In this document: piece by piece, positions 46,880 through 58,811 of the stretch | Layout of the letters: the number at the start of each line of letters is the position of its first letter | Numbering within the stretch: the stretch's first letter is position 1 | Source of the DNA: Ramlibacter sp. | GTDB lineage: Bacteria > Pseudomonadota > Gammaproteobacteria > Burkholderiales > Burkholderiaceae_C | DNA length: 64,000 nucleotides | Assembly (NCBI GenBank): GCA_029237735.1 | Contig: JAQZBU010000020.1 | Location: 1-64,000, forward strand | Reading direction: 5' to 3' | Notes under the pieces: model-generated | Databases searched by the model: none | Seen by the model: the letters and a program-made list of their open reading frames with translations, nothing else | What the model was told of the DNA's origin: nothing | Program-made: the position numbers and the translations under genes

Positions 46880-47010
46880 GACCCGCACGGCTCCTCGATA
46901 CTCTCCAATCATGACACCGAAAAGTGGATAATCCCAGGTACACCCCCCAGTATCAACACAAAAACACGAGGGCCGGGCTCGCGCCGGTTGACGTTATTTC
47001 CGCAGCAATC

Positions 47011-49257
47011 GTGAGGCCACGACTCGGATTCAAGGGAGCGCCCGTCGCCGCCACATGGGTGGCCACTGTCTGCGCTTTCACCCCCCTCGCCGTCACGGCA
47101 CAATCGGGCCAGCCGCCCTCCGAGCCCGCCACGCCAGTCGCATCCCAGGCGCTGGAGAGGGTGACGGTCGTGGGCAAGCGCCGGCAGCGCCTGCACGATG
47201 TCGCCGGCGCGGTGGACGTCCTGGAGGGCGGCGATCTCGAGGAGCGCGCAACCCGTGACCAGGAAGACATGTTCAAGCTGACCCCGGGCGTGCAGTTCAA
47301 CAAGGGCCAGCCGCACCAGGCCCTGCCGACCATTCGCGGCATCGGCACCGTTGCCAACAGCGACCTGCTCGGCACGCAGCAGGCGACGACCGGGTTTTAC
47401 GTCGAAGACCTGCCGTTCAGCGACCCGTTCGGCTTCGTCGGCAACCCCGATATCGCGCTGTTCGACCTGCAACGCGTGGAGTTGCTGCGGGGTCCGCAGG
47501 GCGCCCTCTACGGGTCGGCCTCCCTGGGCGGCGCGGTCAACTACGTGTTCAACAAGCCGGATCTGCAAAGCTTTCACTCGTCCTTGCTCATGGGCGTGGG
47601 CAGCGTAAGCCACGGCGGCGGCGGCCACTCGCTGGATTTGATGCTCAACGCCCCAGTCAAGGAGGACGTCGCCGGAATCCGTTTGGTCGCCTTCGACCGG
47701 CGCGACGCGGGCTACATCACCAACCTGGGCACGGGGCAGGCGCTAGCCAACAGCTTGCGCCAGCACGGCGGCCGCCTCGTGGCCGCCGTGCAACCTGCCA
47801 GCGATGTTTCCATTACCGGGACAGTGCTCACGCAACGCACAGACAACGACGATTCGTTCGCCGTCTCGCCCGACCCGCGGCAACTCACGCGCAACACGCC
47901 GACTGCTTCGTGGCGGCGCAACGAATTCAGCTTGGGCAAGCTGCAGCTGGACATGGCGCTGGGCGCCGGCCACAGCCTCACCGCGATCGCCGGCGTCATC
48001 GACAAGCGCGCTTTCTACGTCAGCGATTCGACTCGCAGCAACGAGGCGCTCGGTGCGTATTACGGCCCCTTGCTCGGCCTGGGCGTGCTGCCCGCACTGC
48101 CGGTGGCCACGTCATCGTCGGCCAGGCCGTTATGGAGCCATGCGGTGTCGCAGGAACTGCGCATCACCTCGGGCGGCGACCACGCCCTGCGCTATGTTGT
48201 CGGTGCGCTGGCACAGCGCACGCGCTTCGACTGGCGCGGCATCAGCGCTGCTCCTGGCGGCCAGTCACTGTGGGGCGCCGCCGGCGCGCTGCTGCCGAAT
48301 GACCAGATCGGGGCGATCGACGTGCAGGCGAGGACGACCGAGACCGCTGTGTTCGCCGACGGCGAGTATCGTTGGCGAAACGGCGTGAGCCTGGGCCTTG
48401 GCGGCCGCGCCTACCGCACGACACTTGGCTATAGCGGGGAAACGACTTTCCTCGGCCGGTCCGCACCCCTGCAGGCTGCCAACGCGGAGCACGGCTTCAC
48501 GCCCAAGCTCAGCCTGAAATACAGCTTCGGCGAGCATCAGGTCTACGTGCTTGCGTCCAAGGGCTACCGGTTCGGCGGCGTCAATCTCAACCCGCCGCAG
48601 ATGTCGCCGTACCGCTCCGATTCCCTATGGAACCACGAGGCGGGCCTGCGGCTCGCCCCTTCCGCGACACTGCGGATCGACTTGAGCGCGTTCGTCATGG
48701 ACTGGAAGAACGCCCAGGTATCGACCCTGCTGGCCGGCCCGGTGCCGTTCATCGGGGTCGCCAATGTGGGACAAGCGCGCAGCCGCGGCGCTGAAGCAGC
48801 ATTGAACTGGCGGCCGGTGCGCGGCCTGGAACTGCACACCGCTGTGGCCTATACCGACGCCAGGACCACGGCGGCGTTCACCGCGAGCTCGGGCGCGCTG
48901 GTGCCGGCCGACGCGCGCCTGCCGGGCACGGCACGCTGGCAAGCGACGCTCCAGGCCAGTTATGCCTTCGAGGGTCCAGCGGCTTCGGCAGGGCGCTTCG
49001 TCGCGACGCACAGCATTGTCGGACCTCGGGTGTTCGACATCGAGGCCCGAAGCCGGGGGGCGGGCTATTCGGTGCTCGACCTGCGGCTGGCTTTCGCCAA
49101 GGGTCCGTGGGAAGTGAGCGCGACGGTCGGTAATGTGTTCGATTCGCGCGGTGTCGGCGGCGCCGCCGTGATCTACCGCCCGCGCCTGGTCTCCTATACC
49201 GACTACTACGTGGTCAAACCCCGCCAGCTGATGCTTCAGCTTCGCCACGACTACTGA
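47011..49257 (+). CDS. TonB-dependent outer-membrane receptor
   Basis: A receptor of about 748 residues that imports a scarce ligand (siderophore, vitamin or oligosaccharide). A signal-like stretch (TWVATVCAFTPLAVTAQ) precedes ALERVTVVGKRRQR, the TonB-box-like region. The plug holds LTPGVQFNKG, IRGIG, GFYVEDLPF and RVELLRGPQGALYGSASLGGAVNY; the rest is a beta barrel ending RQLMLQLRHDY with a C-terminal aromatic residue. The start is uncertain: GTG at 47011 is proposed because it leaves room for promoters, but the frame is open to a GTG at 46924. The divergent two-component system is a likely regulator. No TonB-ExbB-ExbD or permease genes are nearby. Confidence 0.88.
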   Translation: MRPRLGFKGAPVAATWVATVCAFTPLAVTAQSGQPPSEPATPVASQALERVTVVGKRRQRLHDVAGAVDVLEGGDLEERATRDQEDMFKLTPGVQFNKGQPHQALPTIRGIGTVANSDLLGTQQATTGFYVEDLPFSDPFGFVGNPDIALFDLQRVELLRGPQGALYGSASLGGAVNYVFNKPDLQSFHSSLLMGVGSVSHGGGGHSLDLMLNAPVKEDVAGIRLVAFDRRDAGYITNLGTGQALANSLRQHGGRLVAAVQPASDVSITGTVLTQRTDNDDSFAVSPDPRQLTRNTPTASWRRNEFSLGKLQLDMALGAGHSLTAIAGVIDKRAFYVSDSTRSNEALGAYYGPLLGLGVLPALPVATSSSARPLWSHAVSQELRITSGGDHALRYVVGALAQRTRFDWRGISAAPGGQSLWGAAGALLPNDQIGAIDVQARTTETAVFADGEYRWRNGVSLGLGGRAYRTTLGYSGETTFLGRSAPLQAANAEHGFTPKLSLKYSFGEHQVYVLASKGYRFGGVNLNPPQMSPYRSDSLWNHEAGLRLAPSATLRIDLSAFVMDWKNAQVSTLLAGPVPFIGVANVGQARSRGAEAALNWRPVRGLELHTAVAYTDARTTAAFTASSGALVPADARLPGTARWQATLQASYAFEGPAASAGRFVATHSIVGPRVFDIEARSRGAGYSVLDLRLAFAKGPWEVSATVGNVFDSRGVGGAAVIYRPRLVSYTDYYVVKPRQLMLQLRHDY

Positions 49258-49312
49258 CATCCGGGGGACACCAACGGGTGCGCCGATTGTGTCGCATCCG
49301 GCGGCGCCTCGC

Positions 49313-49330
49313 GTCCCCAGTCCTGGGGAC
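49313..49330. other. Palindrome GTCCCCAG-TC-CTGGGGAC
   Basis: A perfect inverted repeat with eight-base arms and a two-base centre, in the 141-base gap after the TonB-dependent receptor gene and 69 bases before the bacteriohemerythrin ATG. It may be an operator for the latter or an mRNA 3-prime structure for the former; no T-run follows. Confidence 0.35.
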
Positions 49331-49398
49331 AGACAAGCCCACCCGCTCCTTCCTAGACTTGCCCGCATTGGGACGGTGAAGATCAACGGAGGAAATCA

Positions 49399-49896
49399 AT
49401 GAACCAGGTTGCACCAATCGGCCGGATGCCGCTTAAGCATCTCTCGATCGACAAGCTGATGCAGTTCGGGGACCACTTTCTGGTCGATCATCCCGTCATC
49501 GATGCCCAGCACAAGGCGATCTTCGAGCTGGGAGTGAGGATGCACGAAGACTGGCGCAATGGGGGACACATTGATGTCCTGCGACCCGCCGTGGAAAAGC
49601 TCGTGAACCTGATGCACTCCCACTTCGCCCAGGAGGAGCGGGTGCTCGAGGCAATCGGCTACGCGGACCTGAAGGGCCATGCGGCGGAGCATCAGGCGAT
49701 GCGCGACGAACTGTCCATCTTGCATGACCGACTCCATGCATTCGACAGAGGCGGAAGGCCTCGAGGCGAATCGTTGAGCGCCCCGAGCGATGCCCTGGTG
49801 CGCTTCATTCTCGGGGTGACGGTGGGCCACGTTGCAGCCAGCGACATGCGCTACTGCCGCGCGCTCAATCGGTCATCAAACCACAGTCACAGCTGA
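49399..49896 (+). CDS. Bacteriohemerythrin
   Basis: A 165-residue diiron protein. Ligand pattern is complete: VIDAQHKAIFELG (His38), HSHFAQEERVLE (His75, Glu79), HAAEHQAM (His94, His98) and HVAASD (His144, Asp149). The N-terminal MQFGDHFLVDHPVIDAQH block is typical of bacteriohemerythrins that carry or sense O2. GGAGG lies just upstream of the ATG at 49399. It is a single-domain protein. The next gene, a small exported protein, follows after 13 bases. Confidence 0.9.
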   Translation: MNQVAPIGRMPLKHLSIDKLMQFGDHFLVDHPVIDAQHKAIFELGVRMHEDWRNGGHIDVLRPAVEKLVNLMHSHFAQEERVLEAIGYADLKGHAAEHQAMRDELSILHDRLHAFDRGGRPRGESLSAPSDALVRFILGVTVGHVAASDMRYCRALNRSSNHSHS

Positions 49897-49909
49897 CAGG
49901 AATATGCAA

Positions 49910-50260
49910 ATGAAGATCCAGATCAATCCCTTCCGGTTCCTTCCTCATGTTCTTGCCGCACTCTTGCTGTGCACCAACGCAGCGGCTGCGACCTCATCCG
50001 TCGATGCCGTCCGGTCCGACGCGCAATTCGACGAAGCCATGGATCTCTACAGCCTGGGCAAATGGGCTGCCGCCTACGGACGCTTTGCCGCGCTTGCGGA
50101 CCAGGGACATGCGGAGGCTGCGCGCATCGCGCTTCTCATGCTTCGTCACGGATCGAGGTTGTACGGTCATAGCTGGGGCGCATCGCAGCCACAGATCAAC
50201 CAATGGATGAAGCTGGCGCTTCAGCGCATGGAAGAACTGAAAGCGGAGTCAGGCGATTGA
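49910..50260 (+). CDS. Small exported protein with a Sel1/TPR-like helical pair
   Basis: A 116-residue protein with a signal peptide (KIQINPFRFLPHVLAALLLCTNAAAA, then ATSS). The mature part carries one helical hairpin, FDEAMDLYSLGKWAAAYGRFAALADQGHAEAARIALLMLRHG, the pattern of a single Sel1-like repeat. The ATG at 49910 has AGGA at good spacing; 49904 is an alternative. It follows the bacteriohemerythrin gene closely. The last 40 bases overlap the convergent FGE gene. Confidence 0.7.
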   Translation: MKIQINPFRFLPHVLAALLLCTNAAAATSSVDAVRSDAQFDEAMDLYSLGKWAAAYGRFAALADQGHAEAARIALLMLRHGSRLYGHSWGASQPQINQWMKLALQRMEELKAESGD

Positions 50261-51207
50261 GCGACCCGGAACCCCTGGTTGCTCGCCGAGCTGTGCGGCG
50301 TGTTGGAGCCGCGCGCGGCCACCCGGTAGCGGTTGCAGTATGAGTCGTGGCACAGGAACGAGCCGCCCCGGCTGGAGCGTCGGCCGGTCGGCTCGGCGTG
50401 AAGTGGGTCGCTCGTACCCGTCACGCGGTGGTAGTCGGGCGTGAACCAGTCTTCGCACCACTCCCACACGTTGCCGGCTACGTTGTAGAGGCCGTAGCCG
50501 TTGGGTGCATGCGTGGCTGTACCGACGACCCCCGGCTGCCAGCCCGGCGCGGGTTCGTTGGGGAACATGCCACGCCAGATGTTGCACAGCGGCTCGGCGG
50601 GCATCGCATTGCCCCAGGTGTAGCGCTTGCCTTCGAGGCCGCCGCGCGCCGCGTACTCCCACTGCGCCTCGGTCGGCAGGCTCGCGCCGGCCCAGCGACA
50701 GTAGGCCTGCGCATCGTCCCAGGACACATGCACTACCGGGTGATCCATGCGATCGCGCACATCCGAGCCTGGCCCTTCCGGGCGCTGCCAGCATGCGTCG
50801 CGCACTTCCAGCCACCAGGGCAGGCCACTGGGGTGTTGTCGGATCGTGCTGCGCAGCTCGCGCGGCACCTGCAGGTAGAACACGAAGGACGAGCCCGCCT
50901 CCTCGGCCTGCGTGATGTAGCCGGTGGCGCGGACGAAGTCGGTGAACTGCGCGTTGGTCACCGTGGTGGGGGCGATGCGGAAGGGGCTGAGGCGCACGCG
51001 CCGTGCGGGGCCCTCGCCGTCGGCGGGGAAGCCTTCGAGTGAATCGGTGCCCATGAGGAACTCACCGCCGGGGAGGGAGATGAAGTCGGGGGAGGCAGGC
51101 GTGGATTGCGGGTCAAGCCCGCAATGACTGACTGTTGTCATGCCGGACTCGATCCGGCATCCACTGTCTTGCGCACGCGACGGCGTGCAGCAGGGCTTGC
51201 CGTTCAC
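50221..51207 (-). CDS. Formylglycine-generating enzyme (FGE, SUMF1-type)
   Basis: A 328-residue protein that oxidises the sulfatase active-site Cys to C-alpha-formylglycine. The two catalytic Cys of true FGEs are present in RGGSFLCHDSYCNRYRVAAR (Cys286, Cys291), and the fold blocks FISLPGGEFLMGTDS (42-56), HPVVHVSWDDAQAYCRWAGASLPTEAQWEYAARGG and NVWEWCEDWF are standard. The start is a GTG at 51207 overlapping the sulfatase stop (GTGA), so the genes are coupled. A double palindrome of the REP type is read in frame at about residues 15-36 (bases 51101-51164). A shorter start, ATG 51141, lies inside it. No signal peptide, so cytosolic. Confidence 0.93.
   Translation of the reverse strand: MNGKPCCTPSRAQDSGCRIESGMTTVSHCGLDPQSTPASPDFISLPGGEFLMGTDSLEGFPADGEGPARRVRLSPFRIAPTTVTNAQFTDFVRATGYITQAEEAGSSFVFYLQVPRELRSTIRQHPSGLPWWLEVRDACWQRPEGPGSDVRDRMDHPVVHVSWDDAQAYCRWAGASLPTEAQWEYAARGGLEGKRYTWGNAMPAEPLCNIWRGMFPNEPAPGWQPGVVGTATHAPNGYGLYNVAGNVWEWCEDWFTPDYHRVTGTSDPLHAEPTGRRSSRGGSFLCHDSYCNRYRVAARGSNTPHSSASNQGFRVAQSPDSAFSSSMR
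51101..51164. repeat. REP-like double palindrome inside the FGE gene
   Basis: Two stem-loops in tandem: ATTGCGGG (51105-51112) with CCCGCAAT (51118-51125), and ATGCCGGA (51140-51147) with TCCGGCAT (51153-51160). The outer ends, GTGGAT (51101-51106) and ATCCAC (51159-51164), also pair, so the element is an inverted doublet. On the minus strand it is read in frame as part of the FGE (residues about 15-36, including GCRIESGMTTVSHCGLDPQS). A diverged copy sits at 25833-25853. Confidence 0.75.
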
Positions 51208-52844
51208 GGCAGGTACGGCGCCTTGAAGTCGTCACGCTCCCAGAATGCCGTTCCCACGTTCTGGTCGCGCAGCAACTGGTCGACGCGCTCGCGCGGGATC
51301 ACGCCGCAGCGCCGGGCCCAGGCCTCGTACTGCGCCGCCATGTCTTTCACGCGGTCGGGGTGCTTCGCGGCCACGTCATTCAGCTCCGTGCGGTCCTGCT
51401 CCATGTCGTACAGCTCCCATGGGTCCGGGTACTTGCGCACCAGCTTCCATTGGCCGATGCGCACTGCCGCGTTGCCCTCGTGCTCCCAGAACATCGGGGG
51501 GCGCTCACCATCCTGGCCATGCAGCGCGGGCAGCAGGCTGTGGCCTTCGAGCGGTTCTACCTGCCTGCCCTTCCAGCTCGCGGGATATTGCGCGCCCGTG
51601 GCTTCCACTATCGTCGCCATGATGTCCGGCAGGTAGCCGGGCGTGTGGCGCACGGCGTTCCGCTCCTTGATGCCCGCGGGCCAATGCACGATCAGCGGCG
51701 TGGAGATCCCGCCCTCGTGAATCCAGTGCTTGTACAGGCGGAAGGGCGAGTTCGAGAGGTTCGCCCACGCCCGCCCATAGCTCTGGTAGGTGTTCTCCGG
51801 GCCGGGCATCACGCCCGGGTCGTTGCCAAAGTGCACCGGCTCTCCTGTGCGCGTGTGCTCTTTGGCGATCATCAACTTGTTCACCAGCTCGTCGACGGTC
51901 AGGTCATCGGGGATGTCCTCCGCACAGGCGCCGTTATCCGAAAGGAAGATCACGAGCGTGTTGTCCAGCTCGCCCTCTTCTTCCAGCGTGCGCAGGATGC
52001 GGCCAATGCCCTGGTCCATGCGGTCGATCTGCGCGGCGTACACCTCCATGCAGCGCAGCAGCCATTCCTTGTGCTTGGCCTGCGTCCAGGCGGGCTGCGT
52101 TGGGTCGCGGTCGGAGAGCGGCCAGGATTTGTCGAGGATGCCGGAGTCCACCAGGCGTTGCAGCCGCTCTTCGCGCAGCTTGTCCCAGCCCTTGTCGAAG
52201 CGGCCCTTGTACTTGCCGATGTCGTCGTCGTGCGCGTGCAAGGGCCAGTGCGGCGCGGTGTAGGCCACGTACTGGAAGAAGGGCTTGCCCCCGTGTTCGC
52301 GTCCATGCTTCTTGATGAACTTCACCGCGTTGTCGCTGATCGCGTCGGTGTAGAAGAAGCCCGGGGCCTTGGCCTCTTGCTCGATGTTCTCGTTGCCGCG
52401 CGTGAGCGTGTTCGGGTCGTAGAAACTGCCGGCGCCGATGATGGTGCCGTAGAACGCGTCGAAGCCCCGCTGCAGCGGCCAGCTGTCCGTGGGCTGCGTC
52501 AGGTTACCGGCCACATGCCACTTGCCGCTCAGGTAGCTTCGGTAGCCCTTGCCCTTGAGCACCTCGGCGATGGTGACGCAGCGGTCGTTCAGGTTGCCCG
52601 CGTAGCCCTCCGGGCCCATGTTGTACGTCAGCACGCCGATGCCGGTCTGGTGCGGGTGCAGGCCCGTGAGCAGTGAGGCACGCGACGGACTGCAGCGCGC
52701 CGTGTTGTAGAACTGCGAGAAGCGCACGCCGCCAGCGGCCAGCCGGTCGAGGTTGGGCGTTTCCACTTCGCCGCCGTAGCAGCCGATGTCGGAGAAGCCC
52801 ATGTCGTCGTTCAGGATCAGGACGATGTTGGGTTGCTTGGCCAT
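51204..52844 (-). CDS. Cytosolic type I sulfatase (arylsulfatase family)
   Basis: A 546-residue sulfatase. It starts MAKQPNIVLILNDDMGFSDIG with the metal-binding Asp residues and has the modification motif CSPSR at 51-55, where Cys51 becomes formylglycine; further blocks are GKWHVAG, YTAPHWPLHAHDDD and IFLSDNGACAED, and the C-terminal domain runs to 546. There is no signal peptide, so it acts in the cytosol on an imported sulfate ester. A ribosome site, AAAGGAAG, precedes the ATG. The FGE gene overlaps its stop, and the ABC importer genes precede it (12 bases after the ATPase stop), placing it in a six-gene operon. Confidence 0.93.
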   Translation of the reverse strand: MAKQPNIVLILNDDMGFSDIGCYGGEVETPNLDRLAAGGVRFSQFYNTARCSPSRASLLTGLHPHQTGIGVLTYNMGPEGYAGNLNDRCVTIAEVLKGKGYRSYLSGKWHVAGNLTQPTDSWPLQRGFDAFYGTIIGAGSFYDPNTLTRGNENIEQEAKAPGFFYTDAISDNAVKFIKKHGREHGGKPFFQYVAYTAPHWPLHAHDDDIGKYKGRFDKGWDKLREERLQRLVDSGILDKSWPLSDRDPTQPAWTQAKHKEWLLRCMEVYAAQIDRMDQGIGRILRTLEEEGELDNTLVIFLSDNGACAEDIPDDLTVDELVNKLMIAKEHTRTGEPVHFGNDPGVMPGPENTYQSYGRAWANLSNSPFRLYKHWIHEGGISTPLIVHWPAGIKERNAVRHTPGYLPDIMATIVEATGAQYPASWKGRQVEPLEGHSLLPALHGQDGERPPMFWEHEGNAAVRIGQWKLVRKYPDPWELYDMEQDRTELNDVAAKHPDRVKDMAAQYEAWARRCGVIPRERVDQLLRDQNVGTAFWERDDFKAPYLP

Positions 52845-52856
52845 GGGTACTTCCTT

Positions 52857-53945
52857 TCAGATGCGGTTGCCGGTCGCCCGGTCGAACATGTGCGCGGCAG
52901 CGGGATCGAACGAGAGCCGCACGCCCTCGCCCTCCCGCACGGCCGGGAGTTCGCCGGCGCGCAACTTCACGCGCTGGCCGGCGGCCTCGAGGTTCACGAT
53001 GCTGCTGTCGCCGAAGTCTTCGACGAATTCCACGCGTGCGGGGATACCGGTGGTGCCGAGGCGCAGGTCGCCGGGGCGGATGCCCAGGGTGACTTCGCGG
53101 GGTACTCTCTCCGGCTGCGTGCCCCCACCCCCGCCCTCCCCCGGAAGGGGAGGGCGTAAAGATATGACCGAATCGCCGATGCGGAGGTGGCCGTCCTGGA
53201 GCACAGCGGGCAGCAGGTTCATCGGCGGCGTGCCGATGAAGGCCGCGACCGTCGTCGTCGCGGGTTTGCGAAAGATCTCATGCGGCGTACCCACCTGCAC
53301 GATGCGGCCTTCCATGAACACTGCCATGCGGTCGGCGATGGTCATGGCCTCTTCCTGGTCGTGCGTCACGTACACGGCAGTGACACCGAGCGAACGCTGC
53401 AACTTGCGCAGCTCGCCCCTCGTCTCAAGCCGCAGCTTCGCGTCGAGGTTGGAGAGCGGCTCGTCCAGCAGAAAAAGGCGCGGTTGCCGCACGATGGCGC
53501 GCGCCAACGCGCAGCGCTGCTGCTGCCCGCCGGAGAGCTGGCCTGGCTTGCGATCCAGCAGGTGAGAGATCGCGACCTTCGCGGCCGCGTCCTGCACCGC
53601 CTTGGCGATCTGCGACGGCGCCGTGCCGATCATCTTCAGTGGAAAGCCGATGTTCTGCCCCACGCTCATATGCGGATACAGCGCGTAACTTTGAAACACC
53701 ATCGCGACATCGCGCGAGCCCGGCTCGGTAGCAGTCACGTCGGCACCGTCGATCAACACGCGGCCCGCATCGACCGACTCCAACCCCGCGAGGATGCGCA
53801 GCGTGGTGGTCTTGCCCGAGCCTGACGGCCCAAGCAGGGCGAAGAACTCGCCGGGCTGGATGTCCAGGTCGATGCCGTGCAGCGCGGTGAATGTGCCGTG
53901 GCGCTTGACGATGCCTTCGAGGCGCACGCTGGCGGATTGCGTCAT
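52857..53945 (-). CDS. ABC transporter ATP-binding protein (MalK/UgpC-type)
   Basis: A 362-residue ATPase of a carbohydrate importer. Walker A GPSGSGKTT, Q-loop MVFQSYALYP, signature LSGGQQQR, Walker B LFLLDEP and switch VTHDQEEA are all present, followed by the C-terminal OB (TOBE) domain. In the latter, about residues 269-278 (RPPLPGEGGG) come from a palindromic repeat at 53132-53156 inserted without breaking the frame. The ATG at 53945 overlaps the permease stop by four bases. Confidence 0.93.
   Translation of the reverse strand: MTQSASVRLEGIVKRHGTFTALHGIDLDIQPGEFFALLGPSGSGKTTTLRILAGLESVDAGRVLIDGADVTATEPGSRDVAMVFQSYALYPHMSVGQNIGFPLKMIGTAPSQIAKAVQDAAAKVAISHLLDRKPGQLSGGQQQRCALARAIVRQPRLFLLDEPLSNLDAKLRLETRGELRKLQRSLGVTAVYVTHDQEEAMTIADRMAVFMEGRIVQVGTPHEIFRKPATTTVAAFIGTPPMNLLPAVLQDGHLRIGDSVISLRPPLPGEGGGGGTQPERVPREVTLGIRPGDLRLGTTGIPARVEFVEDFGDSSIVNLEAAGQRVKLRAGELPAVREGEGVRLSFDPAAAHMFDRATGNRI
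53132..53156. repeat. GC-rich palindromic repeat inside the ATP-binding gene
   Basis: CGCCCTCCCC (53132-53141), a five-base CGGAA loop, and GGGGAGGGCG (53147-53156): a perfect ten-base stem with a C-rich flank (GCCCCCACCCC before). Sequences of this kind are dispersed in many proteobacterial genomes. Here it lies in the reading frame of the ABC ATPase, in the loop before the last OB strands. Confidence 0.65.
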
Positions 53946-54784
53946 CGGCGCCCTCCCCCCTTGACGGCCCCGACAGTGAGCCCCTTGACGATGTGGCGCT
54001 GGGCCGCCAGCCCGATCACGATGACGGGAGCCATGGCAAGCATGGCGCCGGCCGCAAGCCGCGCCCATTGGGTCTGCTCGACAGAAATGAAATTGAACAT
54101 GGCGACGGTGACCGGCCTCACGTTGTTGCCGCCGAGCACGACGGCGAAGAGAAACTCGTTCCACGCGTTGAGGAACACGAACACCGTGGTGACGGCGATG
54201 CCGCCCTTCACCTGCGGCAACACCACGTACCAGAGAGTGCGGATGCGCCCCGCCCTGTCGAGCAACGCAGCTTCTTCCATCTCGTACGGGATGTCCTCGA
54301 AGTACGACACCATCAGCCATACGGCGAAGGGCAGCGAGAACGTGAGGTAGATGGCAGTGAGGCCGCTGTAGCTGTCCAGCAGGCCCACCTTCTGCAGCAC
54401 CAGGTAGTACGGGATGATCAGGCCCACCGGCGGCAGCATCTGCGTGGCCAGCACGTAGAACCCGGTGGACTTCTTGCCCGGGAAGCGCAGCCGCGCCAGC
54501 GCGTAGGCCGCTGGCACTGCGAACAGCATGGTGAGCAAAGTGGACGCGCTCGACACCACGATGCTCGACCACAAGTTGGGCAGGATCGACGAGGTGCCGA
54601 AGAGCACCTCGCGGTAGTTGGCCAGCGTCGGCTCGAATATGAACGTCGGCGGATAGGCCAGCACATCGCGCTCTGTCTTGAACGAGGTGAGCAGGCCCCA
54701 CAGCACCGGGAACACCCACACCGACACGAGCAGCCCCGCCGCCAGCCAGAGCAGCAACTTGCGCAACGGATTGCGCTGGCTCAT
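53942..54784 (-). CDS. Carbohydrate ABC transporter permease (MalG-type)
   Basis: A 280-residue inner-membrane protein with six hydrophobic segments. The coupling helix carries the EAA motif YEMEEAALLDRAGRIRTLWYVVLPQVKGG (168-196). The N terminus LLLWLAAGLLVSVWVFPVLWGLLTSFK is the usual MalG/UgpE start. ATG at 54784 overlaps the stop of the other permease by four bases, and the stop overlaps the ATPase start, so all three are translated in a chain. Confidence 0.93.
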   Translation of the reverse strand: MSQRNPLRKLLLWLAAGLLVSVWVFPVLWGLLTSFKTERDVLAYPPTFIFEPTLANYREVLFGTSSILPNLWSSIVVSSASTLLTMLFAVPAAYALARLRFPGKKSTGFYVLATQMLPPVGLIIPYYLVLQKVGLLDSYSGLTAIYLTFSLPFAVWLMVSYFEDIPYEMEEAALLDRAGRIRTLWYVVLPQVKGGIAVTTVFVFLNAWNEFLFAVVLGGNNVRPVTVAMFNFISVEQTQWARLAAGAMLAMAPVIVIGLAAQRHIVKGLTVGAVKGGGRR

Positions 54785-55686
54785 GCCTTCCTCCGCAGCC
54801 GGAACATGAAGAACGACACCAACATCGTGATGGCCAGCAGCACCATCGCGAGCGATGCGCCGTAGCCCAGGTTCAGCTCCGTGAAAGAGGTGCGGTAGGC
54901 GTACAGGTTCAGGATTTCCGTGGCCGAGCCCGGGCCACCGCCCGTGGCGGCGAAGATCGCCGCGAAGGCCGACAGCGCCGTCATCATCCGCATGATCACC
55001 ACCATCATGATCGCCGGGCGTATCAACGGCAGCGTGATGTACACGAAGCGCTGCCAGGCGCTGGCGCGGTCGAGCCGCGCGGCCTCATAGACATCGGGCG
55101 GCAACGTGGAGAGCGTCGCCAGCAGCACCAGGAAGGCGAAGGGCGTCCATTGCCAGGTGTGCATCGCGATGACGGAGATCAGCGCCAACTGCGGATCGCC
55201 CAGCCAGTTGTGACTGCCCAGCCCGAGCCCGCGCGTCGCCACATCAACCAGGCCCACGTCCGGCGACAACACCAGCGTGCGCCAGAACAAGCCCACCACC
55301 ACCGGCGCCAGCACGATCGGCAGGATCGCGCCCACCCGCAGCAGTGCCTGCCCGCGCGGAATCTGCAGCACCAGCAGCGCGAGCGAGAGGCCGATCACGA
55401 CCTGCAGCACCACAGTGGTCGCCGTGTACACGCCGGTGAGCCAGAGCGAATTCCAGAACCGCGGATCGTCGACCATCTTGCCGAAGTTGGTCGCACCGAC
55501 GAAGCCCGAGAGCCAGGGCATGCTCAGGTCGATGCGGTTCATGCTCGTCCACGCCAGGTAGACAAGCGGTACCGTGGTGGTGATCAGCAGCACGGCCAGC
55601 GCGGGCGCGAGCAGCGCCAGCGCGAAGCGCCGCTCCTGGCGCGCCAGGCTGTCACCCGGGCGCCCTGGCGTCACTGCCGCGTGCAC
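54781..55686 (-). CDS. Carbohydrate ABC transporter permease (MalF/UgpA-type)
   Basis: A 301-residue inner-membrane permease. After a short polar N terminus, the segment RRFALALLAPALAVLLITTTVPLVYLAWTSM is the first helix, and YEAARLDRASAWQRFVYITLPLIRPAI is the EAA coupling loop. The start is a GTG at 55686, four bases after the binding-protein stop, with AAAAG upstream. It pairs with the MalG-type permease to form the membrane channel. Confidence 0.93.
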   Translation of the reverse strand: MHAAVTPGRPGDSLARQERRFALALLAPALAVLLITTTVPLVYLAWTSMNRIDLSMPWLSGFVGATNFGKMVDDPRFWNSLWLTGVYTATTVVLQVVIGLSLALLVLQIPRGQALLRVGAILPIVLAPVVVGLFWRTLVLSPDVGLVDVATRGLGLGSHNWLGDPQLALISVIAMHTWQWTPFAFLVLLATLSTLPPDVYEAARLDRASAWQRFVYITLPLIRPAIMMVVIMRMMTALSAFAAIFAATGGGPGSATEILNLYAYRTSFTELNLGYGASLAMVLLAITMLVSFFMFRLRRKA

Positions 55687-55690
55687 CTTT

Positions 55691-57100
55691 TCAGGCCTTC
55701 AGGATTTGCTGGATGCGCGCCTGTGCCTCGTCCAGCGCTTCTTTTGGCTTCTTCTGCCCCACCAGCGCCGACTGGATGGCCGTGGCCATGGTCTCACCGA
55801 TGGCGGGCCACTGCGGCACGCGCGGGCGCCATTCGACGTCAGTGTCCTGCTCCAGCGATTCGAGCGCGGCGGCAATGAAGTTCGGCCCCGCGGCACCGAC
55901 GGCCTGCGAGAACTCGGCCGATTTCCATGCCGACAGCCGGTTGAGGCCCGAGCGCTTGGCCGGGCCGGCGAACTTCCATGACGTGCGGGCCTGCGTCTCG
56001 GCCGAGGTGGCCCACTGGATGAAGAGCCAAGTGGCCTTCTTTTGCTTTTCTGTAAGAGCCGCGTTGATGGGGAAGCCCCAGTTCCAGATCGAGGTTACGC
56101 GCTTGCCGTTGGGCCCGCGCGGCCAGCGCGCGAAGCCCACCTTGCCGATCACCTTGGACTTCTCGGGGTTCATCAGCACCGCCGCCGAAGAATGCGCGTC
56201 GATGTACGTCGCCACCGTTCCCTGCGAGAACGCGTCGGCGATGTCCGGCCAGTTCCAGTTGCGCACCGCCGGCGGCGCATAGGCCGAGAGCGCGTTCACG
56301 TACCAGTTAAGCGCGTTCACTGCTTCGGGCGAATTGACGACGATGTCCTTGCCCTTGAACCACTCGCCGCCGAAGCCGCGGAAAATCGAAGGGTAGATGT
56401 ACATGTTCTGCCCCGCGCCCGAGAAGCCGCGCAGAGCCAGCCCATACACGCGGTTGGCGGGGTCGTGCAGCGCCTTCGCGTTGGAGAGCAACTGGTCGTA
56501 CGTGTTGGCCGGGTGCAGGCCCTTGGCGTCGTACAAGTCCTTGCGATAGACCTGCACCGTCACCTCGCCGTCGTAGGGGATGCCGTAGGGCTTGCCGTCC
56601 ACCGAATCGGCGTCACGCCAGGCCTTCAGGATGTCGTTGTAGTTGTACCAGGCGGCATCGGTCAGCGTGGCGTCGTTCAGGTACTTGTCCAGCGGCTCGA
56701 CCCACTTGTTGGCGACGTACAGCGGGTAGTACATGGGGTCGGCCGCATGCGTGGCGTACGTCGTGGTCCTGGACGACAAGTCCAGCATCGCCTTCTGGCG
56801 GATCTGTCCGGGCGGCACCTTCTCGGCGCGCACCTTCACGCCGGTGAGCGCCTCGAACTGCGGTAACAGCCCCAGCAAGTTGTCGAAGTAACTGGCGGGG
56901 ATGACGGCCACCGAAATCGACTCACCCTCCACCTGCTTCCAGTTGACCTTGGCGCTGCGGTAGGGTGCCAGATCGTCGACCTGCGCAAAGGCGCTGGTCA
57001 CCCATTGGGGAGTGGCCGCTAGCACGCCCACAGAAGCTGCCTGCTGGATGGCGCGGCGGCGGTCGGGCTGTTGTGGATTGCGCTGGGTACGGTCGGTCAT
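55691..57100 (-). CDS. ABC transporter solute-binding protein, family 1
   Basis: A 469-residue periplasmic binding protein and first gene of the importer operon. The N terminus DRRRAIQQAASVG then AATPQWVTSAFAQ looks like a Tat signal, suggesting export of a folded protein. Family 1 blocks include ISVAVIPASYFDNLLGLLPQFEALTGVKV, ATHAADPMYYPLYVANKWVEPLDKYL, YGIPYDGEVTVQVYRKDLYD and NWGFPINAALTEKQKKATWLFIQWA. The ligand should be a sulfated compound because of the downstream sulfatase, but this is inference. The divergent LacI gene is 151 bases away. Confidence 0.93.
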   Translation of the reverse strand: MTDRTQRNPQQPDRRRAIQQAASVGVLAATPQWVTSAFAQVDDLAPYRSAKVNWKQVEGESISVAVIPASYFDNLLGLLPQFEALTGVKVRAEKVPPGQIRQKAMLDLSSRTTTYATHAADPMYYPLYVANKWVEPLDKYLNDATLTDAAWYNYNDILKAWRDADSVDGKPYGIPYDGEVTVQVYRKDLYDAKGLHPANTYDQLLSNAKALHDPANRVYGLALRGFSGAGQNMYIYPSIFRGFGGEWFKGKDIVVNSPEAVNALNWYVNALSAYAPPAVRNWNWPDIADAFSQGTVATYIDAHSSAAVLMNPEKSKVIGKVGFARWPRGPNGKRVTSIWNWGFPINAALTEKQKKATWLFIQWATSAETQARTSWKFAGPAKRSGLNRLSAWKSAEFSQAVGAAGPNFIAAALESLEQDTDVEWRPRVPQWPAIGETMATAIQSALVGQKKPKEALDEAQARIQQILKA

Positions 57101-57120
57101 CGGTGTCTCCTGTTGGGCTG

Positions 57121-57138
57121 GATGTATTCGATTACATC
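57121..57138. promoter_or_regulatory. LacI-type operator-like dyad, GATGTATTCGATTACATC
   Basis: An 18-base inverted repeat with one unpaired position (T:T), with a central CG as in LacI-family operators. It lies 20 bases before the ATG of the solute-binding protein gene, in its leader or promoter, and would suit repression of the importer operon. Confidence 0.5.
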
Positions 57139-57214
57139 GGCGATTGTGCTTTGACGTTGGTCATGACTGCACCCCGAAACTCTAGGGGAATTCCCTCTAA
57201 CTCCGCAAATAAAA

Positions 57215-57228
57215 TGAAAACGTTTGCA
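57215..57228. promoter_or_regulatory. LacI-type operator, TGAAAACGTTTGCA
   Basis: Close to the LacI/PurR-type consensus TGNAAACGTTTNCA with an AAACGTTT core and a central CG; only one outer pair is off. It is 23 bases before the LacI ATG and 115 bases before the importer start, between the divergent genes. A GCATATGC palindrome overlaps its right end (57226-57233). Confidence 0.6.
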
Positions 57229-57251
57229 TATGCGAATAAGCTCAGCCCGAC

Positions 57252-58274
57252 ATGGACACGCGCACCACCCGCAGCCGCACCGCAAAAGACGTGGCCCTGC
57301 TCGCGGGCGTATCCACCGCCACCGTCTCGCGCGCGCTGAATGCTCCCGAAGCGGTTGACGCGCATACGCTCAAGCGCGTGCGCGACGCGATCAAGAAGCT
57401 GCGCTACGTGCCGCACGGTGGCGCCCGCTCGCTGCGCAGCCAGCGCAGCCGCATGGTCGGCGCCATCGTCCCCTCTTTCGACTACGCGCTGTACGCGCGC
57501 ACCACCAGCGCGCTGCAGCAGCGCCTGGGCGAGCATGGCTACTCCGTGGTGCTGGCCGAGCACCACTACAACCTGCAGCAGGAACTGCAGGTAACGCGCC
57601 AGCTGATCGAGCATGCCGTCGACGCTTTCATGTTCGTCGGCCTCGACCACGACCCGCGCCTTTTTGCGCTGCTGGAAGACTACGGCCGCCCTTTCGTGTT
57701 GACCTGGGGCGTGGACAGCGCCCACCACCACCCTTGCGTCGGCTTCGACAATCGTGCCGCCGGCCACGCCATCGCCAGCCATGTGCTGGGGCTGGGCCAC
57801 CGCCGCATCGCCATCCTGAGCGCGCCGCTTGAGGGCAACGACCGCGGCCGCGAGCGCGTGGCGGGTTTCCGCGCGGCCATCGCCGGGGCCGGCGCGAAGG
57901 AGCCGCATGTGGAGTACGTGCAGCGCATCGCACTCGGCGCAGCCGAGGAGGCGATGCACAAAATCCTGAAACGCAAGCAGCGTCCCACCGCCGTGCTGGC
58001 CACCAACGACGTGATGGCCGTCGGCGCGATGCTGGCGTGCCGCAGTGCAGGCGTGCGCATCCCGGAAGACATCTCCATCACCGGCATCGACAACACCGAC
58101 CTCGGCGCGACCCAGGTGCCGGGGTTGACTTCGGTGCGCACGCCCATCGTAGAGATCGGCACCGCCGCGGCGGAACAGCTGATCGCGCGGCTGGAGGGGA
58201 AAGACTTTGCGGCGAATCAGGTGATGGGTTTCGAGGTGGTCGTGAGGGGAAGTACAGCGAGCCCGAGAGGGTGA
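57252..58274 (+). CDS. LacI family transcriptional regulator
   Basis: A 340-residue repressor. The HTH is at 11-56 (AKDVALLAGVSTATVSRALNAPEAV, with hinge KKLRYVPHGGARSLRS). The effector-binding part (60-340) has the periplasmic-binding fold: MVGAIVPSFDYALYARTTSALQQRLGEHGYSVVL, FVLTWGVDS, GFDNRAAGHAIASHVLGLGHRRIAILS, and ATNDVMAVGAMLACRSAGVRIPEDISITGIDNTDLG. It is divergent from the importer-sulfatase operon, which it most likely represses until its ligand, probably the imported solute or its desulfated product, binds. Confidence 0.94.
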   Translation: MDTRTTRSRTAKDVALLAGVSTATVSRALNAPEAVDAHTLKRVRDAIKKLRYVPHGGARSLRSQRSRMVGAIVPSFDYALYARTTSALQQRLGEHGYSVVLAEHHYNLQQELQVTRQLIEHAVDAFMFVGLDHDPRLFALLEDYGRPFVLTWGVDSAHHHPCVGFDNRAAGHAIASHVLGLGHRRIAILSAPLEGNDRGRERVAGFRAAIAGAGAKEPHVEYVQRIALGAAEEAMHKILKRKQRPTAVLATNDVMAVGAMLACRSAGVRIPEDISITGIDNTDLGATQVPGLTSVRTPIVEIGTAAAEQLIARLEGKDFAANQVMGFEVVVRGSTASPRG

Positions 58275-58295
58275 GTCGTTCAGCGCGGCCGTAGC

Positions 58296-58328
58296 GCTCG
58301 ACAGGGGTGATTTACACGCCTGTCGAGC
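58296..58328. terminator. Strong stem-loop after the LacI gene
   Basis: GCTCGACAGG (58296-58305) and CCTGTCGAGC (58319-58328) form a perfect ten-base stem; the loop GGTGATTTACACG can extend by three more pairs (GTG/CAC) after a mismatch. It sits 22 bases after the LacI stop and well before the NTF2-like gene. No T-run follows, so a Rho-independent terminator is uncertain; mRNA protection or an operator is possible. Confidence 0.4.
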
Positions 58329-58403
58329 ACGCACAGGGTTGAACTCCGTCCTGCCAAATCGCATACTGCCTGACTCTTCAACCGCACTTTGGAGGACCAT
58401 CAC

Positions 58404-58811
58404 ATGAACGAAAAGGAAAATTCTGCGTTGGTGCAACAGGGCTACAAACTCTTCGCGCAAGGCGACATCCCCGGCGTGCTGAAGCTGATGAGCCCGGATG
58501 TGGTTTGGGAATCGCCCAAGGTGGAGAACGTCCCCTTCTCAGGCAGCTTCAAGGGCCAGGAAGGGGTCGGCCAATTCTTCGGGGCACTGGCTGGAGCACT
58601 GGACATTCTGAAGTTCGAGCCGCGTGAGTTCATCGCGCAAGGCAACAAGGTGGTTGTGCTCGGCGAAGGCCGGTCTCGTGTCAAAGGGCAAAAGGAAGAG
58701 TTCGACGATCGATGGGTCGACGTACTCACCGTCGAGAATGGGAAGATCGCCCGCTACGAGCGGTATGGGAACACGGCGCAAACGGAGCGGGCGTTCAGGG
58801 CTGCGCGGTAA
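58404..58811 (+). CDS. NTF2-like / SnoaL-like protein
   Basis: A 135-residue cone-shaped alpha+beta protein. The pattern LVQQGYKLFAQGDIPGVLKLMSPDVVWESP followed by GVGQFFGALAGAL, KVVVLGEGRSRVKG and RWVDVLTVENGKIARYERYGNT is typical of SnoaL-like/NTF2 folds that bind small ligands. ATG at 58404 follows GGAGGA; an upstream TTG at 58389 is in frame but not needed. It ends 17 bases inside the convergent dehydrogenase gene. No catalytic residue can be assigned. Confidence 0.82.
   Translation: MNEKENSALVQQGYKLFAQGDIPGVLKLMSPDVVWESPKVENVPFSGSFKGQEGVGQFFGALAGALDILKFEPREFIAQGNKVVVLGEGRSRVKGQKEEFDDRWVDVLTVENGKIARYERYGNTAQTERAFRAAR

Follow-up and report, generated by a model that had tools for sequence, protein, structure and literature searches.

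A locus of a Ramlibacter draft genome, in which an ABC importer of the sugar/polyol class is encoded together with a sulfatase and a formylglycine-generating enzyme (FGE), raises the question of whether a sulfated solute is imported and desulfated in the cytosol and, if so, which solute this is. The locus lies in the window, by which we mean the whole 64,000-nucleotide stretch of DNA that was analyzed. The draft genome, with a completeness of 94% and a contamination of 8%, totals 5.75 Mb over 253 contigs, and its nearest named relatives are Ramlibacter (Comamonadaceae), with one MAG carrying a sulfatase that is 96% identical. The host is a soil bacterium. Six genes lie head to tail on the minus strand in the order binding protein, two permeases, ATPase, sulfatase, and FGE, with a LacI-type gene on the opposite strand (Table 1). 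The successive junctions from binding protein to FGE are a 4-nt gap, two 4-nt overlaps, a 12-nt gap, and a 4-nt overlap, and the Pfam assignments of all seven genes agree with the named roles. A chain of six genes with junctions of at most 12 bases and a divergent LacI gene, as described in an earlier sequence-only reading of this DNA, is thus confirmed by the reading frames, the junctions, and the Pfam matches. A promoter scan of positions 49300 to 58500, which include the LacI-importer intergenic region, returned no sigma-70-like promoter; since the scan is silent across this whole stretch, its silence between the genes says little about internal promoters. Terminator-like matches in the scanned stretch number 6, against a shuffle mean of 4.7.

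Table 1. Positions of the genes, motifs, and candidate operators of the locus in the window
Feature	Position	Strand	Evidence
Solute-binding protein, family 1 (CUT1), twin-arginine-type N-terminus	55691..57100	-	PF01547, 123.7 bits
Permease 1 (UgpA/MalF type)	54781..55686	-	PF00528; best NCBIfam match UgpA, under cut-off
Permease 2 (MalG/UgpE type)	53942..54784	-	PF00528; best NCBIfam match MalG, under cut-off
ATPase (MalK/UgpC type, OB and TOBE domains)	52857..53945	-	PF00005, PF17912, PF08402; UgpC 391 bits versus cut-off of 432
FGly-type sulfatase	51204..52844	-	PF00884, 213 bits versus cut-off of 25
CSPSR motif of the sulfatase, codons 51-55; Cys51 is the predicted formylglycine site	52680..52694	-	Invariant in 87/87 aligned sequences, the window's included
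Formylglycine-generating enzyme (FGE), GTG start	50221..51207	-	PF03781, 252 bits; 333 bits to 6muj and 2q17
CHDSYC, catalytic Cys pair of the FGE	50335..50352	-	Identical in 2q17 and 6muj
LacI-family regulator, divergent	57252..58274	+	PF00356 and PF13377; opposite-strand orthologue upstream in 31/80 loci
Candidate operator O1, TGCAAACGTTTTCA as read on the minus strand	57215..57228	.	Pattern match
Candidate operator O2, TGTAATCGAATACA	57123..57136	-	92 nt from O1, directly ahead of the binding-protein gene

The sequence-only reading had proposed a search for this gene order in related genomes. We read the best 80 of 263 confirmed relatives; some of these stretches are short, and 63 of the 80 loci have sufficient flanking DNA. 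Among these 63, the complete set of four importer genes is present in 61, the FGE in 57, and all six genes in 55, and because the order is kept in other genera, it is more than chance. The regulator varies: a LacI gene lies opposite the operon in 31 of the best 80 loci, and in 32 others the ATPase and sulfatase genes have a GntR gene between them; no locus combines the two. The system is patchy in distribution. The importer is found at 1e-120 in 8 of 399 genomes of the order and at 1e-110 in 3 of 398 genomes of the phylum, the window's own being included in both counts, and a sulfatase orthologue is found at 1e-180 in 1 of the 385 genomes of the alphaproteobacterial set, which is the center genome itself. 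A TonB receptor gene at 46924 to 49257 was considered as an outer-membrane part of the system and was rejected, as it has no match above 35% identity in the best 80 of the 263 loci.

The importer is of the CUT1 sugar/polyol class, with a family 1 binding protein, two permeases, and a MalK-type ATPase with TOBE/OB domains. In 35 binding-protein sequences, Arg15 of the twin-arginine-type N-terminus is invariant and Arg14 is nearly so. By sequence, the closest solved chains to the binding protein are 5iai and 4rya, whose names describe ABC binding proteins for a sugar and for sorbitol, and a Foldseek search with an AlphaFold model also returned these two as best matches. The model was the top one of five and has a pLDDT of 81.4, while the two poorest have 57.9 and 54.8. 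Since 4rya is named a sorbitol binder, the resemblance fits a small polyol ester. SmoF (7ofy), the binding protein of a sulfoquinovose importer, stands at rank 11 and appears from the model to be a structural neighbor of the same CUT1 type that also binds a sulfo-solute, but the ligand of that system is a sulfonate rather than a sulfate ester, and the system is not known to include a sulfatase. The glycerol-3-phosphate importer UgpBAEC is also similar, in that the ATPase matches UgpC best and the permeases match the UgpA and UgpE models; however, the window proteins all score under the curated cut-offs, and UgpB is absent from the NCBIfam matches of the binding protein. To our knowledge, few importers of sulfate esters have a known ligand.

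The sulfatase has the PF00884 fold above the cut-off and the CxPxR motif with Cys that mark FGly (class I, S1) sulfatases, together with the metal- and sulfate-binding set. Ten residues (D13, D14, C51, R55, K108, H110, H199, D303, N304, and K372) are the same in all 87 sequences compared, among them the window's own, and the FGly, metal-binding, and sulfate-binding residues align with those of Pseudomonas AtsA that we take to be catalytic. No signal peptide was recognized on the sulfatase by eye; the protein begins right at its first strand (MAKQPNIVLILNDDMG), as AtsA does in their alignment. In relatives, 75 of 82 sulfatase frames begin 12 to 33 residues ahead of the DDMG motif, while the remaining 7 extend upstream and do not fix the start position. 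The description of a sulfatase that lacks a signal peptide and carries CSPSR is therefore borne out by the N-terminus, the starts in relatives, and the invariant motif, and because no signal peptide is seen, we place the enzyme in the cytosol.

The closest solved chain to the sulfatase is 7all, the Bacteroides enzyme BT4683 of SulfAtlas subfamily S1_4 (394 bits), and the next is AtsA of Pseudomonas aeruginosa (1hdh, 303 bits). The match to BT4683 starts at residue 26 of that protein, after a stretch that we assume to be a signal peptide, whereas the window sulfatase has no N-terminal extension and is encoded with an importer operon. AtsA, which belongs to a sulfur-starvation regulon, is likewise an FGly-type enzyme that starts without an N-terminal extension and aligns over nearly its full length; what sets the window locus apart is its single unit of CUT1 importer, FGE gene, and LacI regulator. 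The ats transporter is probably of another ABC type than CUT1. The window sulfatase falls far below the choline sulfatase (BetC) model TIGR03417 (124.6 bits versus a cut-off of 433.45), and plasmid records label its relatives only as arylsulfatase. In PMC10154620, BT4683 is listed as a 3-sulfogalactose enzyme with a mucin substrate.

The FGE is of the aerobic type, with a PF03781 domain and the catalytic Cys pair. It aligns with the solved chains 6muj and 2q17, and the claim that both catalytic Cys residues are kept in CHDSYC holds, since the motif is identical in these two chains. The N-terminal Cys-Cys included by the GTG start at 51207 recurs in relatives, which speaks for this start. The same reading had called this FGE a dedicated maturase, which stands as to its position in the operon but not as to exclusivity: the draft genome has a single full-score FGE match (252 bits; the runner-up has 85.2 bits), and CxPSR is present in three of the eight sulfatase-family matches scanned, the window's and two more. 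Because the sole full-score FGE is accompanied by two further CxPSR sulfatases, it probably serves all three.

Based on the conserved six-gene unit, the lack of a recognizable signal peptide, the full catalytic set, and a true FGE, the import of a sulfated organic solute and its desulfation in the cytosol, as the sequence-only reading had suggested, is the best reading of importer and sulfatase and is very probably correct.

That reading had left the ligand unknown; a candidate can now be offered from the genes beside the sulfatase in relatives. Among the best 80 of the 263 loci, a glycerol kinase gene (GlpK) adjoins the sulfatase in 13, GlpD adjoins it in 13, and both do so in 12. The expectation by chance is ~0.2 to 0.35 GlpK-linked loci (from 1.495 Mb of loci and a density of 13 GlpK genes in 12 genomes of ~57 Mb). 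In a tree of the sulfatase made by a quick method, which has 81 rows (the window plus the 80 loci) and leaves 22 of its 78 inner branches open, the 13 loci fall in five separate places, with 6 changes, of which at least 4 are forced. GlpK scores above the TIGR01311 cut-off in all four loci tested (L017, L088, L059, and L137), and GlpD is above its cut-off in L088, L059, and L137 and under it in L017 (305 versus 360). There are three arrangements: in L017 (Ramlibacter rhizophilus), FGE, GlpK, and GlpD lie on one strand with the GlpK start 7 nt past the FGE; in Xanthobacter (L088), GlpR, GlpD, and GlpK lie immediately ahead of the importer, whose frame starts 26 nt after GlpK; and in L059, the order is FGE, GlpR, GlpD, GlpK. 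Eight of the nine GlpK-linked genomes searched have no second GlpK, while the L088 genome has two. GlpK is present elsewhere in the genome in the unlinked genomes L009, L011, and L012. In the window's genome, GlpK has GlpR-like and GlpD-like neighbors on contig C113, and neither GlpK nor GlpD adjoins the sulfatase; the link is thus seen in relatives only. UgpB-like and GlpR-like genes upstream in Bradyrhizobium score under the cut-off and were left uncounted.

The transporter beside the sulfatase is exchanged among relatives. It may be a CUT1 ABC importer, a TRAP transporter, or an MFS protein, and the grouping of sulfatase, FGE, and GlpD/GlpK can persist through the exchange. Six plasmid records were examined among the 22 with a match; four of these six have TRAP genes, one has ABC genes, and one has a TauD gene instead. 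A Sulfitobacter plasmid has the order GlpD, GlpK, GntR, sulfatase (68% identical), three TRAP genes, and FGE. The sulfatase is accompanied by TRAP genes on three further plasmids, two from Paracoccus and one from Labrenzia, where GlpK is absent, so that GlpK is present in one of the four TRAP-type plasmid loci examined; in one of the three without it (L138), the FGE is also absent from the stretch. In L059 and L056, an MFS gene lies 72 to 73 nt ahead of the sulfatase (72 nt in L059); L059 continues into the glycerol genes, and the L056 stretch ends shortly past the sulfatase. Because GlpK accompanies the sulfatase under three kinds of transporter, we read the link as one to the product of the sulfatase and not to the importer.

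The recurrence of GlpK and GlpD beside the sulfatase points to glycerol sulfate, and we lean slightly toward a glycerol sulfate, either 2,3-dihydroxypropyl sulfate or its 2-isomer, as the small sulfate ester that the operon is predicted to take up. This prediction is drawn from relatives because the window's own GlpK lies on another contig. Several observations count against it: 67 of the best 80 of the 263 loci have no GlpK in the stretch examined, some of which are short; three of the four TRAP-type plasmid loci examined also lack it; in L117, the importer is paired with a choline sulfatase; and in L118 to L120, importer relatives lie beside a GMC oxidoreductase with no adjoining sulfatase match. 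The L117 genome has no close relative of the window sulfatase (best, 38% identical) and no FGE at 1e-30. Owing to these loci and to the substrate of 7all, choline sulfate, sulfated sugars, and general scavenging stay as rivals. A link to a sulfopyruvate decarboxylase in L120 was dropped, both proteins being far under the cut-offs.

The candidate operators connect the locus with choline-O-sulfate. A palindrome-like site, TGNAAWCGWWTNCA, is present in the LacI-importer intergenic region of 30 of the 31 LacI loci (among the best 80 of 263; one strand scanned), twice in 19 of them, and L046, whose stretch ends before LacI, also carries it. The O2 14-mer itself lies beside LacI in eight loci (L009 to L013, L016, L039, and L078). 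In 649 kb of LacI loci there is one further site on the scanned strand, ahead of a Bug/choline-sulfatase pair in L022. The window's genome has the site at three places, O1, O2, and one on contig C24, and the reversed pattern has zero occurrences there. The C24 site is followed by genes for a Bug protein, a choline sulfatase (612 bits to TIGR03417, versus a cut-off of 433), and a second LacI protein, and in the closest relative, L009, LacI and the importer are separated by a pair of Bug and choline-sulfatase genes. With a LacI HTH, a ligand domain, and the conserved palindromic candidate operator adjoining its gene, the regulator is predicted to be a LacI-type repressor, and, judged by the shared candidate operator and the L009 pair, the window operon and choline-O-sulfate use look co-regulated. 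Contig C24 could be mis-binned, given the 8% contamination of the draft; L009, L013, and L023 show the same link within one contig. No helical phasing of the two operators is claimed: 20 spacings of 88 to 127 nt show no peak at 10.5 (R 0.34; best period, 12.1). The BetC system of Sinorhizobium meliloti is similar in that an FGly sulfatase cleaves a small alkyl sulfate ester, and its counterpart in the window's genome shares the operator; however, the window sulfatase belongs to a different subfamily, and the GlpK-linked relatives carry glycerol genes instead of choline genes.

It is rather improbable that choline-O-sulfate, alone or with other esters, is itself the ligand, with the window sulfatase as an accessory enzyme of the choline-sulfate regulon. 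The shared operator and L117, where a choline sulfatase takes the place of the window-type sulfatase, are consistent with this, as is the choline-sulfatase relative that 5 of the best 80 of the 263 loci, from five groups, carry within the operon or next to it; all three of these relatives that were scored pass TIGR03417, and the one in L009 keeps Glu386, the choline-recognizing residue of the Sinorhizobium enzyme, by alignment count. However, the window sulfatase is far from the choline-sulfatase cut-off (125 versus 433 bits), and at 45% identity a choline sulfatase is missing from the stretch examined in 75 of the best 80 of the 263 loci. Another alternative is a sulfated sugar or sugar alcohol, such as a 3-sulfogalactoside or a glycerol glycoside sulfate, of which glycerol would be only a part. 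The closest solved sulfatase acts on 3-sulfogalactose (PMC10154620), and the binding protein belongs to the sugar/polyol class, with the sulfosugar binder SmoF at Foldseek rank 11. The families that recur by eye in at least three groups, core genes and regulators excluded, are GlpK/GlpD, choline sulfatase, Bug, HIBADH-like, CaiB-like, GMC, mandelate racemase, ClC, Ssu-type transport genes, an SDR-like frame, and a few frames without identification, and apart from GlpK no sugar kinase was recognized among them, nor any glycosidase or sugar isomerase. We regard a sulfated sugar as quite improbable. Bug-type binding proteins (11 groups) were discounted as evidence because the family is very large, and the ClC channel, GMC, and mandelate-racemase neighbors, in 3 or 4 groups only, were set aside.

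The system might instead serve, as AtsA does, for general sulfur scavenging from assorted aryl and alkyl sulfates, the glycerol genes of relatives being a separate polyol module. AtsA is the second-closest solved enzyme, and a TauD-like dioxygenase gene precedes the sulfatase in L027, L031, L032, L044, L045, and Phaeobacter L142. The AtsA gene is raised >95-fold in sulfur starvation, according to PMC12581299. We nevertheless consider scavenging unlikely, since LacI and GntR regulators and a carbohydrate-type importer would better suit a carbon source, GlpK accompanies the sulfatase at one locus with TRAP genes and at one with an MFS gene, and the neighbors that recur in five groups include GlpD and choline sulfatase.

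If glycerol sulfate is the ligand, a LacI-type repressor would act at two operators between its own gene and the importer and would be released by the ligand or its product. The CUT1 importer, as its family and context suggest, would carry the ester into the cytosol, and the FGE, following the chemistry of its family, would oxidize Cys51 of the sulfatase to formylglycine. The sulfatase would then free sulfate and glycerol, and GlpK and GlpD, encoded in or beside the cluster in GlpK-linked relatives and on another contig in the window's genome, would feed the glycerol into glycolysis. Somewhat short of even, in our judgment, is a broader possibility: a dedicated glycerol-sulfate pathway in soil, freshwater, and marine Proteobacteria, in which the sulfatase lineage and its own FGE would be a fixed core, three unrelated transporters (CUT1 ABC, TRAP, and MFS) and two regulators (LacI and GntR) would be swapped around this core, the sole GlpK found in the genome would sit in the cluster in some members, and one LacI-type regulon would include choline-O-sulfate use in Burkholderiales.

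The individual parts are of known kinds; in open-licence literature, represented chiefly by titles and the openings of abstracts, we found no description of an operon of this type or of a glycerol-sulfate sulfatase. Glycerol sulfate, as two isomers, is reported in aerosol samples and atmospheric particles in PMC12224290, and most of the sulfur of aerobic soils is present as sulfonates and sulfate esters, as stated in PMC3839906. If the reading is true, it would describe a route for bacterial use of small organosulfates, and it provides an easily tested candidate substrate for a conserved sulfatase lineage. It would tie small organosulfates to bacterial use of both carbon and sulfur and would show a single enzyme core that retains its downstream pathway beneath three kinds of transporter.

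The FGE proteins of the window and of related loci carry a hypervariable N-terminal tail in which a Cys-Cys pair, often in the form CCxP, lies 23 to 59 residues ahead of the domain. This pair is found in all 68 anchored FGE proteins and in 3 of the 4 unanchored ones (the remaining one is a fragment), as well as in 5 of the 6 plasmid FGEs read. Inspection of the sequence of the L134 FGE, a more distant member, found the pair to be missing. FGE is a copper enzyme (PMC4505483), and our guess is that the Cys-Cys pair of the tail helps to load the copper.

Within the operon, the genes for FGE and the ATPase host in-frame insertions of palindromic repeats of the intergenic type. By eye, the FGE tail of one related locus (L009) contains a repeat of the same kind as that in the window FGE, and the tail of another (L010) has a different repeat at the corresponding place.

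Features of the window in and beside the operon
Feature	Positions	Strand	Remark
FGE start	51187-51207	-	tail bearing Cys-Cys pair
Palindromic intergenic-type repeat	51108-51158		in frame, inside FGE gene
Palindromic intergenic-type repeat	53134-53154		in frame, inside ATPase gene
TonB-dependent receptor and hemerythrin-domain gene	46924-49896		adjoining operon

For the TonB-dependent receptor, comparison with 80 loci (the best 80 of 263 confirmed relatives) gave no match above 35% identity. Elsewhere in the draft genome of the window, contig C24 (L099, 6938-11468) encodes a Bug protein, choline sulfatase, LacI, and a metallophosphoesterase consecutively, and this row is preceded by the same operator as the window operon.

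In locus L117 (1844-8648), a choline sulfatase is paired with the same importer as in the window operon. Choline sulfatases of this kind require formylglycine, yet a search of the L117 genome at 1e-30 found no FGE, and therefore another route of sulfatase maturation may operate there.

Immediately upstream of the sulfatase, six related loci (L027, L031, L032, L044, L045, and L142) have a gene for a TauD-like dioxygenase; L027, whose flank is long enough to judge, has no importer. On a Sulfitobacter plasmid (L137, 6462-19715), a GlpD-GlpK-GntR-sulfatase-TRAP-FGE block may move as a unit, since IS6 and IS3 transposase genes flank it. In Bradyrhizobium and its kin, FGE is followed downstream by a ClC channel and then by GntR, a GMC oxidoreductase, a mandelate-racemase relative, and an Ssu-type transporter. 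For these FGE-ClC loci (L054, L057, L058, L060-L063, L065, L067, L068, L070, L074, and L141), a sulfate efflux path is conceivable.
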